DNA of 31,759 bases from a virus: IMG/VR virus record IMGVR_UViG_3300007734_000570, positions 1-31,759 of that record, one strand, 5' to 3'. Numbering within the stretch: position 1 is the stretch's first letter; the number at the start of each line of letters is the position of its first letter. Made by a program: the position numbers and the translations under genes. Of the stretch, positions 3 to 25,938 are shown in pieces. A model generated the notes under the pieces. It searched no databases and was not told the DNA's origin. It saw only the letters and a program-made list of their open reading frames with translations.

Positions 3-179
3 GAAGGAGATAGAGTAGTTTTAGAGAAGGCCGAAGCAAGGGAGATATTCCGAACTTGGGAATCCTTCAGAGATAACGATTTTGTTCGTGCCAGGCTTGA
101 AAGATGCGAAAAGGTCTATGGATCAGGAGCAAGAGATCGGGTCAGGTTTTATATGTCAAATGAAAGAAGGACAAATTGA
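3..179 (+). CDS. Hypothetical protein, 5' end outside window
   Basis: An open frame enters from the left edge and stops at TGA 177-179, giving 58 visible residues. It is rich in Arg, Glu and Asp and ends in RVRFYMSNERRTN. It has no membrane segment or Cys cluster. Its stop overlaps the TTG start of the methyltransferase (TTGA), so the two are probably translationally coupled. The AGAAGG ribosome binding site of the next gene lies inside its last codons. I do not recognise the family. The start is not in the window, unless the molecule is circular, in which case an in-frame ATG lies at 31753 near the right end. Confidence 0.6.
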   Translation, partial: EGDRVVLEKAEAREIFRTWESFRDNDFVRARLERCEKVYGSGARDRVRFYMSNERRTN

Positions 180-1168
180 ATGAGTTGGCTTTATTCGCAG
201 GTGCTGGTGGAGGAATACTTGGGGGACAACTTCTCGGATGGAGAACAGTCTGTGCCGTTGAATGGGAGCCATACGCAGCTTGCGTACTTGCCGCCCGACA
301 AAATGACGGCCTTCTCCCGAGTTTCCCGATTTGGGATGACGTTCAAACCTTTGACGGAAGACCTTGGAGAGGAGTTGCTCAAGTCATTTCGGGAGGATTT
401 CCTTGTCAAGACATTTCCATTGCAGGAAAAGGAGATGGACTTGATGGAGAGCGATCAGGAATGTGGAAGCAAATGGCGAGGATCATTTGCGAAGTGGGAC
501 CAGAGTACGTCTTTGTGGAGAACTCACCAATGCTCGTTTCTAGGGGACTTGGAGCCGTTCTCGGAGACTTATCCTCAATGGGGTTTGATGCGAAATGGGG
601 AATTGTGGGAGCAAAAGACGTTGGTGCAAACCACCAAAGGGACAGAATCTGGATTGTGGCTCACTCCAACAGTAATGGATGGACTACCCGCAAGAAATCC
701 AGAAGCCTTGGAGAGACAGTATCAAAACAACAGGAAGGGCAGGACAACCCACTCCACTCTGAGGGAACAAGTAGTCTATCCACCACCGAAACAAATGTTT
801 CCCACACCAAATGCTTGGGATGGGAAAAGAGGTCCTCGCTCAGAAGAACACCTAAGAACGAAGAAAGCACAAATAACCTTGGTGACGGCAGTAGCCCATC
901 TGGAGAGGGAGAACTTTCCAACTCCATGTGCGACAGATTACAAAGGGGCAGGTCAGACGGGACAACTGAAAGACAGATTGGATTACGCTGCCGAAAGGGG
1001 AGCAACGAAAAGCAAAACCTTTACGGAGCCGACAGTTCCTGGTGGTCAGTTGAACCCGACTTGGGTAGAGTGGCTCATGGGGTGGACGCTAGGGTGGACA
1101 GACTTAAAGCCATTGGCAATGGACAAGTCCCTCTCTGTGCCGCAACTGCATGGGGACTTTTGAAATGA
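176..1168 (+). CDS. DNA (cytosine-5) methyltransferase, phage type
   Basis: This is a C5-type DNA methyltransferase that transfers a methyl group from SAM to cytosine in a short target. Phage copies usually protect the phage DNA from host restriction. Visible motifs are the SAM-binding loop ALFAGAGGG (residues 5-13), catalytic GGFPCQDIS with Cys77, ENSP (115-118, in place of the usual ENV), QRDRIWIVA (154-162) and motif X-like AIGNGQVP (312-319). The length (330 aa) suits a phage enzyme. The start is TTG at 176, with AGAAGG six bases upstream. Residues about 163-285, the expected target-recognition region, are low in complexity and rich in Ser, Thr, Gly and Asn. A second long ORF overlaps the whole gene in another frame, which may explain this. 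The gene is visibly richer in GC than most of the window, which may reflect transfer or dual coding. Confidence 0.9.
   Translation: MNELALFAGAGGGILGGQLLGWRTVCAVEWEPYAACVLAARQNDGLLPSFPIWDDVQTFDGRPWRGVAQVISGGFPCQDISIAGKGDGLDGERSGMWKQMARIICEVGPEYVFVENSPMLVSRGLGAVLGDLSSMGFDAKWGIVGAKDVGANHQRDRIWIVAHSNSNGWTTRKKSRSLGETVSKQQEGQDNPLHSEGTSSLSTTETNVSHTKCLGWEKRSSLRRTPKNEESTNNLGDGSSPSGEGELSNSMCDRLQRGRSDGTTERQIGLRCRKGSNEKQNLYGADSSWWSVEPDLGRVAHGVDARVDRLKAIGNGQVPLCAATAWGLLK
180..1163 (+). CDS. Overlapping ORF within the methyltransferase gene
   Basis: A 327-codon ORF lies in the +1 frame relative to the methyltransferase. It starts at ATG 180, four bases after the TTG, and stops at TGA 1161-1163, five bases before the methyltransferase stop. 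It has protein-like features: three spaced copies of a (L/F)xTPxxxD motif (LTPTVMDG, FPTPNAWDG, FPTPCATDY), a Trp-rich stretch SETYPQWGLMRNGELWEQ, and the C-terminal block NPTWVEWLMGWTLGWTDL. The last is a pattern I recall from hypothetical or methyltransferase-associated phage proteins, but I cannot give a family name. It shares the AGAAGG ribosome binding site at better spacing (about nine bases) than the TTG start. The function is unknown. It could be a separate protein made from the same DNA, or an ORF kept open by chance. Confidence 0.6.
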   Translation: MSWLYSQVLVEEYLGDNFSDGEQSVPLNGSHTQLAYLPPDKMTAFSRVSRFGMTFKPLTEDLGEELLKSFREDFLVKTFPLQEKEMDLMESDQECGSKWRGSFAKWDQSTSLWRTHQCSFLGDLEPFSETYPQWGLMRNGELWEQKTLVQTTKGTESGLWLTPTVMDGLPARNPEALERQYQNNRKGRTTHSTLREQVVYPPPKQMFPTPNAWDGKRGPRSEEHLRTKKAQITLVTAVAHLERENFPTPCATDYKGAGQTGQLKDRLDYAAERGATKSKTFTEPTVPGGQLNPTWVEWLMGWTLGWTDLKPLAMDKSLSVPQLHGDF

Positions 1169-5009: not shown

Positions 5010-5146
5010 TATTTAACCCTCACATTAAATTCTTGAATACTAAAATTTCTTATTTCATTTTCTTTAGCGCATTGAAGGGCTAATTCTTTAGAAGAGAAAA
5101 CCGCAACAATATCACCCTCTTCAGTTAATACAAATACTTTATGCAT
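5009..5146 (-). CDS. Small hypothetical protein, 45 aa
   Basis: A 45-residue protein starting MHKVFVLTEEGDIVAVFSSK and looking like a small beta-beta-alpha unit. The frame is open further upstream to 5206, but that part lies inside the GP88-like gene. ATG 5146, preceded by AAAGGGG at good spacing, is more likely. It overlaps the end of the gene before by eight bases. The N-terminal pattern of alternating hydrophobic residues with a Thr-Glu-Glu-Gly turn is frequent in tiny phage proteins of unknown role. Confidence 0.6.
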   Translation of the reverse strand: MHKVFVLTEEGDIVAVFSSKELALQCAKENEIRNFSIQEFNVRVK

Positions 5147-5897
5147 AATGAACCCCTTTAATTTGAACAAAACCCGATTGATCCTTTTTTGCTTTACCTT
5201 TAGCATATAAAGCCACTACTACATTTTTCGGCTCAATATGTCTTACATCAGTATCATCCCCATCAATAACCTCCCAAAATCTAAAGCTTGAGGGAATATC
5301 CTCTTTTCTTTGGAAAACTACCGCTACTCTAGAATTATCCTTATTGGTTAATCCTTTTATTGATATTGGTTTTGGGGTAATGCTAGAGAATGAATAGGTT
5401 AAATCATAGTTTCCTGATGTTTTACCCTCTAGGTTTCTAGATGGATGTTTTGTGTAATCATAAAATTGGACACTATTAAATAAACTAAATATTGTCCTAT
5501 TTGGAATAATCTCAAAATTTTCCCAAGGGATATCGCTGGTGCCATTTAGTCGCACTAAAAGTTTCTGATTATTCTTTTGTGCCTTTTCTCTTAATGTCCA
5601 AATATCTGCACAAAGAGAAAACAAAAAGCTTTTTTGTTGTGTGTACCAAAACTCAGTTTTTGATTTTCTCGCCTGCTGCACGCTATTAAATGCGCCTCTC
5701 CCTGATGTGTAGAGGCATCCTTCCATGCATCCTGCAAGCTTTGCAAGGGGACAAAGGTTATCGTCAGGGGTTAGGTAGAGGATGGCGGTTAAAAAGCCCA
5801 TCTTCTCCCCTTTGATTGTCTTCGTTGATGCGGTTCCTAATAGCTTTTTATAGATAAGCCCATCTTTTTTCATGATTGATCTGTAAGGATTAAACAT
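5139..5897 (-). CDS. GP88-like (DUF7227-like) phage protein
   Basis: The largest gene of the leftward operon, 252 residues. The N-terminal part has a Cys cluster, Cys49, Cys57 and Cys61 (CX7CX3C) within LCPLAKLAGCMEGCLYTSGR, followed by QQARKSKTEFW and VRLNGTSDIPWE. This arrangement matches my memory of the uncharacterised GP88/DUF7227 phage family. The spaced Cys suggests metal or Fe-S binding, and the activity is not known to me. The frame is open from GTG 5903, but ATG 5897 follows AAAAGGCGTGAAT and is the probable start. It sits mid-operon, overlapping the following gene by eight bases. Confidence 0.7.
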   Translation of the reverse strand: MFNPYRSIMKKDGLIYKKLLGTASTKTIKGEKMGFLTAILYLTPDDNLCPLAKLAGCMEGCLYTSGRGAFNSVQQARKSKTEFWYTQQKSFLFSLCADIWTLREKAQKNNQKLLVRLNGTSDIPWENFEIIPNRTIFSLFNSVQFYDYTKHPSRNLEGKTSGNYDLTYSFSSITPKPISIKGLTNKDNSRVAVVFQRKEDIPSSFRFWEVIDGDDTDVRHIEPKNVVVALYAKGKAKKDQSGFVQIKGVHYA

Positions 5898-5900
5898 ATT

Positions 5901-5910
5901 CACGCCTTTT
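5901..5910 (-). promoter_or_regulatory. AAAAGGCGTG pre-start element
   Basis: On the minus strand this reads AAAAGGCGTG, three bases before the chosen ATG at 5897. It is one of six near-identical elements in the leftward operon (the others are at 4819, 6661, 6927, 7433 and 7560). It sits where a ribosome binding site is expected. Confidence 0.55.
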
Positions 5911-21962: not shown

Positions 21963-22363
21963 TTGACTATGAAAAGTACAAGATTAATGGTGAATTGCCA
22001 TTATGGGCTGTATCTTTTCAAAAAGTAGAAAAAATACTTCAACCTGCTTTAGAATACGATAACACTCATAATATGCAGGACGTAGCCGACTGTATAGACA
22101 GTTGTACGATGCAATTATGGCCTGGAGTTAATAGCGCAGTAGTAACTCAGGTACAAAACTTTCCAAGAATGAAGGTTTTGCACATATTTTTGGCTTCTGG
22201 TGATCTAGTAGAACTAGAAACATTCACCCCCCATATTCAGAAGTTCGCTGAAGACATGGGATGCCACAAGATCACCTTAACAGGACGTAGAGGTTGGTCA
22301 AGAACTTTTGTATCTAAATTTAACATGAAGCCAACACATTATTGGCTATCTACGGAGGTGTAA
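21959..22363 (+). CDS. Putative internal virion / GNAT-fold-like protein
   Basis: A 134-residue protein starting MIDYEKYKINGELPLWAVSF. Blocks such as VLHIFLASGDLVELETF, KFAEDMGCHKITLTGRRGWS and the C-terminal THYWLS recall a small group of phage proteins near the internal core genes, similar in outline to the T7 gp13-type. The functional assignment is weak. ATG 21959 overlaps the previous stop as ATGA. GGAGGT, the ribosome binding site of the next gene, lies inside its last codons. Confidence 0.6.
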   Translation: MIDYEKYKINGELPLWAVSFQKVEKILQPALEYDNTHNMQDVADCIDSCTMQLWPGVNSAVVTQVQNFPRMKVLHIFLASGDLVELETFTPHIQKFAEDMGCHKITLTGRRGWSRTFVSKFNMKPTHYWLSTEV

Positions 22364-22365
22364 TT

Positions 22366-24393
22366 ATGTCTGGTGGTTCAAGTCAACAAACACAGCAGCT
22401 TGACCCTGCATTGCGTGATGCTTATTTGGCAAATGTAGCAAGCGCACAAGGTGTTGCCGCAGGTTTAGCTCCTAGAGAGTTTGCGGGATATAATGCTGAC
22501 CAAAATCAAGCATTTGCACTAAATCGTTTGTATGCAAGCCCATTAAGTGCGCCTACTATGTATGCTACTGATGCCGCTAATATATTAAAACAAGGATCTC
22601 AGTATCAGCCACAAAATGTTCAATATGGCGCTTATGGTGGAGCGACTGTAGACCCTGCGGCTTTGGCTGCTCAACAAGGTTATACGGCTACAACTGGTCA
22701 ATACGCATCTGCTGGACCTGCTGCTGCATATGGTGGCGCACAAGCTGGTCCTGCTTCTTTAGCTCAAGCCACTGGTTATACGGCAGAACGATTTGGTGGT
22801 GTATCTGCGGGTCCCGCAGAAAGAGCGCAAGCCGCTGCTTTAGGCCGTGGCGATATTCGTGATGTGTCTGCCCAACAAGTAGCCGCTGAAAGAGTTGCCG
22901 CCCAACAAGCCGCTGCCGCACAAGCCGCACGTAGTGGTGCAAGAGATGTATCTGCTACTGGTGTAACAGGCGCTCAAGTAACTTCTGAGGCTTTGGGACA
23001 GATTGCTCCACAAGCCCGTCAAAATGTCCGTGATATTCAAGCCGCATCATTTTTGAATCAGAATATTCAGCAGTATATGAATCCATATACACAAGCTGTT
23101 ACTGAGCAAAGTCTTACTGATTTAGAGCGTTCACGACAACTTGAGCAACAAAGAACTGCGGCACAAGCTACTGCGGCTAAAGCATTTGGTGGATCTCGCC
23201 AAGGTGTAGCAGAAGCAGAGACTAATCGTGCTTATGGTGAGAATGCGGCTCGATTGGTTGCTCAACAGAATGCGGCTGCTTATGCCGCTGCCCAACAAGC
23301 TTCTGAGGCTGATCTTGCTCGTACTATGCAAGCACAACAGCTTAATCAGGCTCAAGATGCCGCAAGTACACAACAAGCATTGCAACTTGCAGGTCAGTTT
23401 GGTTTAGCTAATCAAGATGCAAACTTACGTGCGGCTTTGGCTAACCAAGGTGTTGATGTTCAATACGGCTTGTCAAATGCTCAAATGCAACAACAGGCGA
23501 TGTTGGCAAATCAAGATGCTAATTTACGTGCTTCTCTTGCCAATCAATCTACTGGATTACAAGCGCAACAAGCTAATCAAGATGCCTCATTAAGAGCTTC
23601 CCTTGCAAACCAAGGTGTTGACTTAAATGTTGGTCAGCTAAATACCCAAAATATGCAACAAGCAAATCTTGCCAATCAAGCTGCCGCTAATCAAATGGCT
23701 CAATACAATGCAAGTAATTTGCAACAAGCAGGTTTGTCTTCTCAAGCTGCCGCAAATCAAGCTATGCAGTTTGGTGCTGGCGCTCAGAATCAAGCTTCTA
23801 TGCAGAATGCTGCCGCACAGAATGCTTTGGCTCAGTTTAATGCAGGTAATCTACAACAAGCAGGTCTTTCTAATGTTGCGGCTCAAAACCAGATGGGGCA
23901 ATTTAATGCTGGTAATCAGCAAGCAATGGCACTAGCAAATATGGGCGCTCAGAACCAAGCCTCTCAGTTTGGTGCTTCTGCATTTAACCAAGCAGGTTTG
24001 GCTAATCAAGCGGCTATTAATGCACGTGCTGCCCAACAAGCAGGATTGACTCAGCAAGCAGGTCTTACAAATGCTCAAAACTTCTTGCAAGCTAATTTAG
24101 CCAATCAGCAAGCAGGTTTACAGGGAAATCAGCAAAGAATTACTGCGGGTGGTCAGTTAGCCTCTGCCGCTACAAACTTGCAAAACCTTGGATTTGGTCA
24201 AGCCAATCAACTTGCTCAACAAGGCGCATTCCAACAAGGCTTCTCACAGCAACAGTTGGATGCCATCCGCAATCTTCCTTTGGAGCAACAACAGATCATC
24301 AACCAAGCATTGGGACTCAATGTTGGTGGTGGTTCTGGAATGCAATCTTCTTCTACTTCCAAGCAAGGTCTGCTTGGCGCTCTTGGTCTGTAA
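22366..24393 (+). CDS. Gln/Ala/Asn-rich repetitive virion protein
   Basis: A 675-residue protein with a normal N-terminus (MSGGSSQQTQQLDPALRDAY, and GLAPREFAGYNADQNQAF), followed by long Ala- and Gln-rich repeats. The central repeat has the form LANQDANLRASLANQ and later LQQAGLSSQAAANQ, about 12-18 residues long and repeated many times. This is typical of internal or ejection proteins of podoviruses, which form channels through the cell envelope. The start at ATG 22366 has a perfect GGAGGT; the frame opens earlier at TTG 22342. The DNA repeats are a consequence of the repeated codons. Confidence 0.75.
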   Translation: MSGGSSQQTQQLDPALRDAYLANVASAQGVAAGLAPREFAGYNADQNQAFALNRLYASPLSAPTMYATDAANILKQGSQYQPQNVQYGAYGGATVDPAALAAQQGYTATTGQYASAGPAAAYGGAQAGPASLAQATGYTAERFGGVSAGPAERAQAAALGRGDIRDVSAQQVAAERVAAQQAAAAQAARSGARDVSATGVTGAQVTSEALGQIAPQARQNVRDIQAASFLNQNIQQYMNPYTQAVTEQSLTDLERSRQLEQQRTAAQATAAKAFGGSRQGVAEAETNRAYGENAARLVAQQNAAAYAAAQQASEADLARTMQAQQLNQAQDAASTQQALQLAGQFGLANQDANLRAALANQGVDVQYGLSNAQMQQQAMLANQDANLRASLANQSTGLQAQQANQDASLRASLANQGVDLNVGQLNTQNMQQANLANQAAANQMAQYNASNLQQAGLSSQAAANQAMQFGAGAQNQASMQNAAAQNALAQFNAGNLQQAGLSNVAAQNQMGQFNAGNQQAMALANMGAQNQASQFGASAFNQAGLANQAAINARAAQQAGLTQQAGLTNAQNFLQANLANQQAGLQGNQQRITAGGQLASAATNLQNLGFGQANQLAQQGAFQQGFSQQQLDAIRNLPLEQQQIINQALGLNVGGGSGMQSSSTSKQGLLGALGL

Positions 24394-24402
24394 GGAGTTT
24401 AT

Positions 24403-25938
24403 ATGCCGTTTAATCTTGGTTTGCTGTCAGATGCAGCACTTACTGGTCTTACTGATGAAGAAAAGAGTAGTCTTCAAAAGCAAGCTACTCAACAGTTCTT
24501 GCTTGGTTCTTTGTTAAGCAATGACCCTTCTATGGGCTTGAAGTCTGCTTACTCAGTACCAGAACAATATTTGAGTGGTCAAAGAGCTATTACTGAGATG
24601 CAACAAAAGGCTGCTGATCGTGCCGCTGTTGCTAATTTCCAAGGCAAATATATGCCTACGCAATTTAATGAAGCTAGTCCTCAATATATGGGTCCTGTAA
24701 CTCCAGATGTTGCAATGCAACAAAATGAGTTGAAGACTGCTAGAGCGCAAGGCCTACCTTTCAACATCCAGAATGCTTTGCAAGATGTAATTAATTTGCC
24801 TACTGCCAACCAAGGTCCAATGCGGGAAACTATTAGTGCTTTGCAACCTAAAGTGCAGGGTAATTTATTGCTAAACCCAAATATGGAAATATTGCGTGGT
24901 TTACCAACACAAGATAAAGGTATTACATCTCAATACAGCCCATTGACAGGTGGGTATTCTGCGGCTCCTGTGCAGAACTATATGCAATCTATGATTCAGA
25001 CTACTCCTCCAGAGGTGTCTGCTAACACTATGCTTGTTCCAATGCAAGGCGGTGGCTTTACTCAACAAGCAATCCCAGGAGCAGTAACGGCTGTTGGAGA
25101 TATTGAAAGAGCTAAAGCTGTTGCTCAAGCGGGTGGTCAAGTTGAACAAGTTATTGGTGCAGATGGAAAAACATATTACGTCCCTAGGTCTTCTTTGCTA
25201 ACGCAACGTCCAACTGGCGCTCAAACTGGCACAACTGGTGGCGTTCCAAGTGGTGTTCCAAGTGGTGCAGTAGCTAAAATTTCACCTGCTCAAGAAGCAG
25301 TAAATCTTGCAACATCAAACCGCTATAACGAATTTACTAAAACATCATTAGATGCTGCAATGACAGTTAATGATCGTAAAACTTCTGCAGAATTTCTATA
25401 TAACGCTGCTGAACAATTAGACCCAAATAAGACAACTGAATGGTTTGCTACTGGTGCATCTTATCTACGGGCTATACCTGGTGTTGGTGATAAATTTGAT
25501 TCATTAGTAGGCAATGTTAACTTGCTGAACAAAACACGATCTGAGGGTGTTTTAAAGGGTCTTGGAAATATTAAAGGTAACGCTAATGCATTTGAAGGAG
25601 GCATTGTTGACAAAGCGACTACTGGTGTAACTGATCCTAAGTTTGTTACTAAGTATGTTTCTGCTCTTGAGATTGCCGCTGCAGATAAAGATGACGCTCG
25701 TCAAAAGTTTATTGACTCATATACAGGTGATCCTAAGTCTGTCTATACGGCATGGGCTAACTCTCCTGATAACCCTCGTTTGTATAACCATCCAAAGGTT
25801 AACCAATTCCTTAATGAGCAAATTTCTGCTAATCCAAGCGCACCTATTTTGCCATCAGGATTCCAGCTTGTTCAAGGTAAATCTGGAAGATATGGCGTTA
25901 AAAAGCCAGATGGTACTGTAATGTTTATTGGTCAATAA
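24403..25938 (+). CDS. Internal virion protein
   Basis: A 511-residue protein with no catalytic motif. The N-terminus (LLSDAALTGLTDEEKSSLQK) and central helical blocks fit internal core proteins in podoviruses. A C-terminal part (SAPILPSGFQLVQGKSGRYG, KKPDGTVMFIG) is beta-like. It lies between two other large internal proteins and follows with AAGGAG as ribosome binding site. Its exact place in the particle is unknown. Confidence 0.7.
   Translation: MPFNLGLLSDAALTGLTDEEKSSLQKQATQQFLLGSLLSNDPSMGLKSAYSVPEQYLSGQRAITEMQQKAADRAAVANFQGKYMPTQFNEASPQYMGPVTPDVAMQQNELKTARAQGLPFNIQNALQDVINLPTANQGPMRETISALQPKVQGNLLLNPNMEILRGLPTQDKGITSQYSPLTGGYSAAPVQNYMQSMIQTTPPEVSANTMLVPMQGGGFTQQAIPGAVTAVGDIERAKAVAQAGGQVEQVIGADGKTYYVPRSSLLTQRPTGAQTGTTGGVPSGVPSGAVAKISPAQEAVNLATSNRYNEFTKTSLDAAMTVNDRKTSAEFLYNAAEQLDPNKTTEWFATGASYLRAIPGVGDKFDSLVGNVNLLNKTRSEGVLKGLGNIKGNANAFEGGIVDKATTGVTDPKFVTKYVSALEIAAADKDDARQKFIDSYTGDPKSVYTAWANSPDNPRLYNHPKVNQFLNEQISANPSAPILPSGFQLVQGKSGRYGVKKPDGTVMFIGQ

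Follow-up and report, generated by a model that had tools for sequence, protein, structure and literature searches.

A 31,759-nt stretch of virus DNA (IMG/VR record IMGVR_UViG_3300007734_000570), referred to in the following as the window, contains two almost completely overlapping genes that, as judged from sequence comparison, most likely encode a single two-subunit cytosine-C5 DNA methyltransferase of the M.EcoHK31I kind. In hundreds of loci both reading frames are kept open and conserved, and both are under selection. The frame-2 product (alpha) has methyltransferase motifs I–VIII and X, the frame-3 product (beta) has motif IX and a series of modules marked by (L/F)xTPxxxD units (TP modules), and single-chain relatives join all of these parts in one frame. 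Coordinates are given in Table 1.

Table 1. Features of the alpha/beta locus, in positions of the window.
Feature	Position	Strand	Basis
Shine–Dalgarno-like AGAAGG	165..170	+	9 nt before ATG 180, 5 nt before TTG 176
Alpha subunit (predicted), C5-cytosine DNA methyltransferase, motifs I–VIII and X	176..1168	+	PF00145, phrog_363, M.HhaI alignment
Beta subunit (predicted), 327 aa	180..1163	+	phrog_1008; frame open in all related loci; ATG kept
Beta N-terminal region, residues 1–156	180..647	+	No relative detected outside the overlap
Alpha motif I, FAGAGGG	194..214	+	Sequence; M.HhaI alignment
Alpha motif IV, PCQ, catalytic Cys77	401..409	+	Sequence; M.HhaI alignment
Alpha motif VI, ENS	518..526	+	Sequence; M.HhaI alignment
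Alpha motif VIII, QRDR	635..646	+	Sequence; M.HhaI alignment
Beta TP module 1, LTPTVMDGLPARNPEALERQYQNNRKGRTTHSTLREQVVYPPPKQM, residues 161–206	660..797	+	Module cluster in 23 loci
Alpha codons 166–288, passenger linker	671..1039	+	Nucleotide changes spare frame 3, not frame 2
Beta TP module 2, starts FPTPNAWDGKRGPRSEEHL, residues 207–245	798..914	+	Module cluster in 12 loci, several positions
Beta TP module 3, starts FPTPCATDYKGAGQTGQLKDRLDYAAERGATKSKTF, residues 246–289	915..1046	+	Module cluster in 13 loci, several positions
Beta motif IX, LNPTWVEWLMGWTLGWTDLKPL, residues 291–312	1050..1115	+	Near-invariant columns in 89 betas; single-chain alignment
Alpha motif X, GNGQVP	1115..1132	+	Sequence; alpha frame in 161 loci

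Two reading frames over the same DNA

The ORF listing of the window gave two same-strand ORFs in frames 2 and 3, at exactly the positions reported in a first-pass annotation of this DNA. The frame-2 ORF (176–1168, +) starts with TTG and encodes 330 residues, and the frame-3 ORF (180–1163, +), at +1 of alpha, starts with ATG and encodes 327; the starts are separated by 4 nt and the stops by 5 nt. The (L/F)xTPxxxD units and the NPTWVEWLMGWTLGWTDL block that had been noticed in frame 3 were found there again. None of the other same-strand ORF pairs in the window overlaps on this scale. The end of alpha and beta is overlapped by the start of an ORF for a RusA-like Holliday junction resolvase (1150–1593, +; PF05866, E = 1.4e-38).

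The contribution of chance was estimated by holding the frame-2 protein constant, redrawing its synonymous codons and counting the stops that appeared in frame 3. Resampling by the codon usage of the window gave a mean of 10.9 stops, with a minimum of 2 in 20,000 trials, and exchanging the codons of the gene itself between identical residues gave a mean of 5.7. For the window alone, the synonymous redraw puts the probability of a stop-free frame 3 at about 1e-4 or less. The double open frame is not due to chance.

Alpha has the catalytic motifs

Alpha matched phrog_363 over its full length (E = 4.3e-66) and PF00145 with E = 7e-33, the Pfam match stopping at residue 225. The C5-cytosine methyltransferase motifs I, IV (PCQ), VI (ENV/ENS) and VIII (QxRxR) are present in order, and all four lie within residues 4–165, which align to residues 15–173 of M.HhaI. 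No motif IX-like sequence was found after residue 225 in the alpha frame, and alpha does not have the single-chain form, in which motif IX and the recognition domain are part of the same chain. The low-complexity middle of alpha is passenger sequence.

Beta has exchangeable modules and motif IX

Residues 65–310 of beta matched positions 36–282 of the 329-position profile of phrog_1008, a phage family labelled 'DNA methyltransferase' (E = 3.7e-32), while searches of Pfam, NCBIfam and the PDB gave no match. The protein begins with the peptide MSWLYSQVLVEE, and its N-terminal half had no match in the PDB and none in the single-chain relatives (hhalign probability 0.1%). Motif IX of beta was aligned to motif IX of the single-chain relatives; it shares its DNA with GRVAHGVDARVDRLKAI of alpha.

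Across the relatives, beta ranges from 258 to 373 aa, and the number of modules is variable. When 104 betas were cut at their TP units, the resulting 250 modules fell into 68 similarity clusters and formed 86 different arrangements, and a given module recurred with different neighbours and at different positions. Such a distribution resembles the pattern expected for shuffled recognition units. The position of the modules between motifs VIII and IX, taken together with established knowledge of C5 methyltransferases, suggests that they serve in target recognition. When beta alone was modelled with AlphaFold, the pLDDT was 51 and there was no useful fold. For a single-chain relative, the catalytic domain was predicted with confidence and matched M.HhaI and M.HaeIII, and the TP modules fell below pLDDT 50. 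A recognition-domain fold of the modules is putative.

Both frames are conserved and under selection

Two scans of viral contigs yielded 160 loci, and a scan of bacterial genomes with a beta alignment yielded 80, to which 19 phage and plasmid records were added. The second frame was open, at +1 of alpha, in 160/160 viral loci, and the beta frame was at +1 of alpha in all 99 of the bacterial (80) and phage or plasmid (19) loci. The bacterial loci were assigned to Pseudomonas, Acinetobacter, Burkholderia, Halomonas, Pantoea, Desulforhopalus, Spirochaetia, Verrucomicrobia (Verrucomicrobiales) and others, some of them from metagenome bins with uncertain host labels. Family tests were done on 105 loci with less than 95% nucleotide identity to each other; many of these are related, and the counts are not independent events.

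In these 105 loci, frame 3 is open from its start across the whole shared region. The only +1 stops were a TGA directly before the ATG and stops from alpha nt 808 onward, where beta terminates, compared with 6.1–9.4 stops expected per gene from synonymous reshuffling. Alpha codons 1–88 had 0 frame-3 stops, against 1.3–2.0 expected per gene. The first-pass annotation had made its second protein depend on homologues and on the absence of stops from the second frame of relatives; many homologues exist (phrog_1008), and there are no such stops.

In the +1 geometry, alpha codon position 3 is beta position 2 and alpha position 1 is beta position 3. We compared the position 3 to position 1 ratio of nucleotide differences (pos3/pos1) in alpha with that in control genes, the flanking ORFs of the same loci, at 70–80% amino acid identity. 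The control ratio was 2.34. In alpha, it was 1.78 for codons 2–32, 1.15 for 33–64, 2.24 for 65–88, 1.28 for 89–125, 1.56 for 126–165, 0.26 for 166–288, 0.60 for 289–317 and 2.13 for 318–330, with control-like values only at codons 65–88 and 318–330. These ratios indicate that alpha dominates at the start, that both frames matter at codons 33–64, 89–165 and 289–317, and that only beta is maintained at codons 166–288. In close pairs, the differences at codons 166–288 were 0.315, 0.102 and 0.093 at positions 1, 2 and 3, respectively. The pos3/pos1 ratio of these codons ranged over 0.26–0.31, against 1.9–2.3 in control genes. Over the N-terminal region of beta, the alpha wobble position is constrained at alpha codons 33–64 and 89–165, and individual alpha codons are invariant, such as CCC at P294 and GGG at G136, each in 105/105 loci.

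The comparison of codon positions among relatives thus revealed selection acting in both frames. It also bore out the observation that the low-complexity stretch, previously described as the target-recognition part of the methyltransferase, coincides with the second frame: this stretch lies over the functional second frame, and codons 166–288 evolve as frame-3 rather than frame-2 coding DNA.

Alpha codons 65–88 (368–439), around and after the catalytic PCQ, showed no beta constraint, yet were stop-free in all relatives; a stretch of beta might thus serve as no more than a linker. In three loci (L034, L062 and L080), the alpha frame was cut short and beta was open over its full length, reflecting either sequencing error or real loss.

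Start sites

The AGAAGG word upstream of the locus could act as the ribosome signal for both starts. The beta ATG (+4) was kept in 104/105 relatives. The alpha codon in register varied across the 105 loci (ATG 48, TTG 21, TTA 15, GTG 14, CTT 5, CTC 1, CTA 1), and where it was a non-start codon, an alpha-frame ATG or GTG was nearly always found close upstream. A Shine–Dalgarno (SD) word of at least 4 bases with usable spacing was present 5' of the beta ATG in 82/104 relatives, mostly at 6–9 nt, versus 216/1050 control ATGs (21%). An internal beta start at ATG 444, which has a good SD (AAAAGGAG, ~428–435), was rejected, given the conserved ATG 180 and a frame-3 constraint that is already seen at codons 33–64.

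Single-chain and partly overlapping relatives

Two actinophage methylases, mycobacteriophage Filuzino gp68 (536 aa) and prophi104-2 gp17 (416 aa), have the same parts as the window, namely motifs I–VIII, TP modules, motif IX and motif X, but in one frame and one polypeptide. Their modules are repeats of LLPTPxAxDG, motif IX is EWMMGWPAGW or EWMQGWPLGW, and motif X is GNGV(C/V)P. Both chains were matched by phrog_363 as well as phrog_1008. In profile comparisons, alpha aligned to the catalytic part of the single-chain relatives (99.9%), and the C-terminal half of beta aligned to the section that holds their TP modules and motif IX (probability 97.1%, E = 7.6e-11).

A motif census of distinct loci found 161 of the window's type, in which motif IX belongs to beta and motif X to alpha, 12 in which beta has the two motifs together and 31 single-chain forms, the remainder being unresolved. 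The beta frame has motif X in L208, L255 and L259, and the alpha frame of these loci is closed after motif VIII, in L208 and L255 soon after it. These three loci are possible intermediates between the single-chain and the fully overlapped forms.

Both genes had often been recorded by the original annotators of the relatives, as in Paenibacillus larvae phage Diva ('g49 internal gene'), mycobacteriophage Phanphagia (gp65/gp66, 'DNA methylase'), E. coli phage K1ind3 (ORF30 and ORF29) and ArV1 (067a/067b). The Phanphagia, ArV1 and Diva pairs and Stasia gp76/gp75 belong to the window's families and have the same +1 offset. Unlike the window, the paired actinophage 'DNA methylase' genes mostly overlap partially and have motifs IX and X both in beta. 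The deposited annotations of the paired actinophage and P. larvae genes give names and no mechanism.

Alternative explanations

The main rival is a programmed +1 frameshift after motif VIII, fusing the N-terminal half of alpha to the C-terminal half of beta into a single active chain and leaving the separate long ORFs as by-products. Such a join would recreate the order of parts in the single-chain relatives; beta has both motif IX and motif X in the 12 loci mentioned above, and in L208 and L255 alpha closes just where a frameshift would yield a complete enzyme. In the 161 loci of the window's type, however, motif X is in the alpha frame, so the product would be without X. Moreover, a conserved ATG of its own, preceded by SD words, is available to beta, and the constraint on frame 3 ahead of motif VIII (codons 33–64 and 89–165) would be purposeless if beta were entered by frameshift only. 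For the window's type, we therefore disfavour a frameshift and consider it unlikely.

It is even less probable that the frame-3 protein is not half of a methyltransferase and has a separate job, for example in regulation or in the inhibition of host restriction. Part of beta could act otherwise, since nothing related to its N-terminal half was detected outside the overlap, but the C-terminal half corresponds to the stretch of single-chain methyltransferases that has the TP modules and motif IX, and alpha has no selected recognition region. The first-pass annotation had left open whether the methyltransferase was accompanied by a partner or by a counter-defence factor. The former is retained, as a methyltransferase and its partner are very probably both encoded here; the idea of a counter-defence factor distinct from the enzyme is not, as the evidence points to the partner being the recognition half that this methyltransferase otherwise lacks.

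A second frame left open by accident of codon usage and composition, which a GC content of 42% and some codon preferences would allow in one gene, is refuted by the lack of stops in the shared region of 105 loci where 6–9 would be expected, by the open +1 frame in 99/99 phage, plasmid and bacterial loci and by the frozen wobble positions, and its probability is close to nil.

A proposed two-subunit methyltransferase and its relation to known split enzymes

In the two-subunit arrangement that we favour, frame 2 would give alpha, responsible for AdoMet binding and catalysis (motifs I–VIII) and carrying motif X, with an unconstrained linker at the site of the recognition domain. Frame 3, from its own ATG 4 nt downstream, would give beta, with an N-terminus specific to the split form, exchangeable TP modules where a target-recognition domain would sit, and motif IX. 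Both proteins would presumably be made and needed, and alpha and beta would bind each other to assemble into the active enzyme. The modules of beta would read the DNA and set the target sequence, and the enzyme would modify the phage DNA such that host restriction enzymes could not cut it. Protection of phage DNA from host restriction is probably its role: the window is from a tailed phage, with terminase, portal, scaffold and major head protein, and the ORFs scanned in it included none recognised as a restriction enzyme, which makes an orphan protective methyltransferase likely.

We tentatively suggest, at somewhat less than even confidence, that the TP modules are individual exchangeable recognition units, that phages re-aim the methyltransferase by shuffling them in the second frame of the gene while alpha tolerates any resulting linker, and that the beta N-terminus was born by overprinting of the catalytic domain.

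The beta gene of M.EcoHK31I likewise lies in another frame overlapping alpha. M.EcoHK31I (YGGCCR) is summarised as a naturally split C5 methyltransferase whose large subunit has motifs I–VIII and X and whose small subunit has motif IX (PMC3404938). Compared by description, the window shares this motif layout. The recognition domain of M.EcoHK31I is predicted in the large subunit, whereas selection in the window's family puts the TP modules in the frame of the small subunit. The window's overlap also differs in spanning almost the whole length of both genes, and its beta family in size (258–373 aa) and variable modules. M.AquI (CYCGRG), another split C5 methyltransferase, consists of two polypeptides, as proposed for the window, but its small subunit has motif X together with motif IX, whereas motif X of the window is in alpha; an M.AquI-like motif X in beta was found in some relatives (L208, L255 and actinophages). 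We found no published description of the overlap in phages in the open-licence literature searched, and earlier ones may exist elsewhere. The distribution, the near-complete overlap and the module shuffling in the overlapped frame go beyond the published work that we found.

To our knowledge, good support for long gene pairs that overlap completely is rare in bacteria and their viruses. The overlap described here extends over about 300 codons and has a function that can be read in either frame; hundreds of phages keep it, as do contigs from many bacterial genomes, and the single-chain and partly overlapping relatives outline a possible route of origin. The results suggest that many genome annotations overlook the recognition part of enzymes of this kind or assign it to the wrong frame.

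Other observations in the window

Two ORFs of 683 and 511 aa (22342–24393 and 24403–25938, +) adjoin the structural genes and had no PHROG match. An ORF at 5139–5903 (−), one of a series of minus-strand ORFs with a plus-strand block on either side, matched phrog_1617, of unknown function (E = 4.1e-61). The block with alpha and beta has a second methyltransferase, a small SAM-dependent methyltransferase-like protein encoded at 2461–2976 (+; phrog_22502, phrog_5399).
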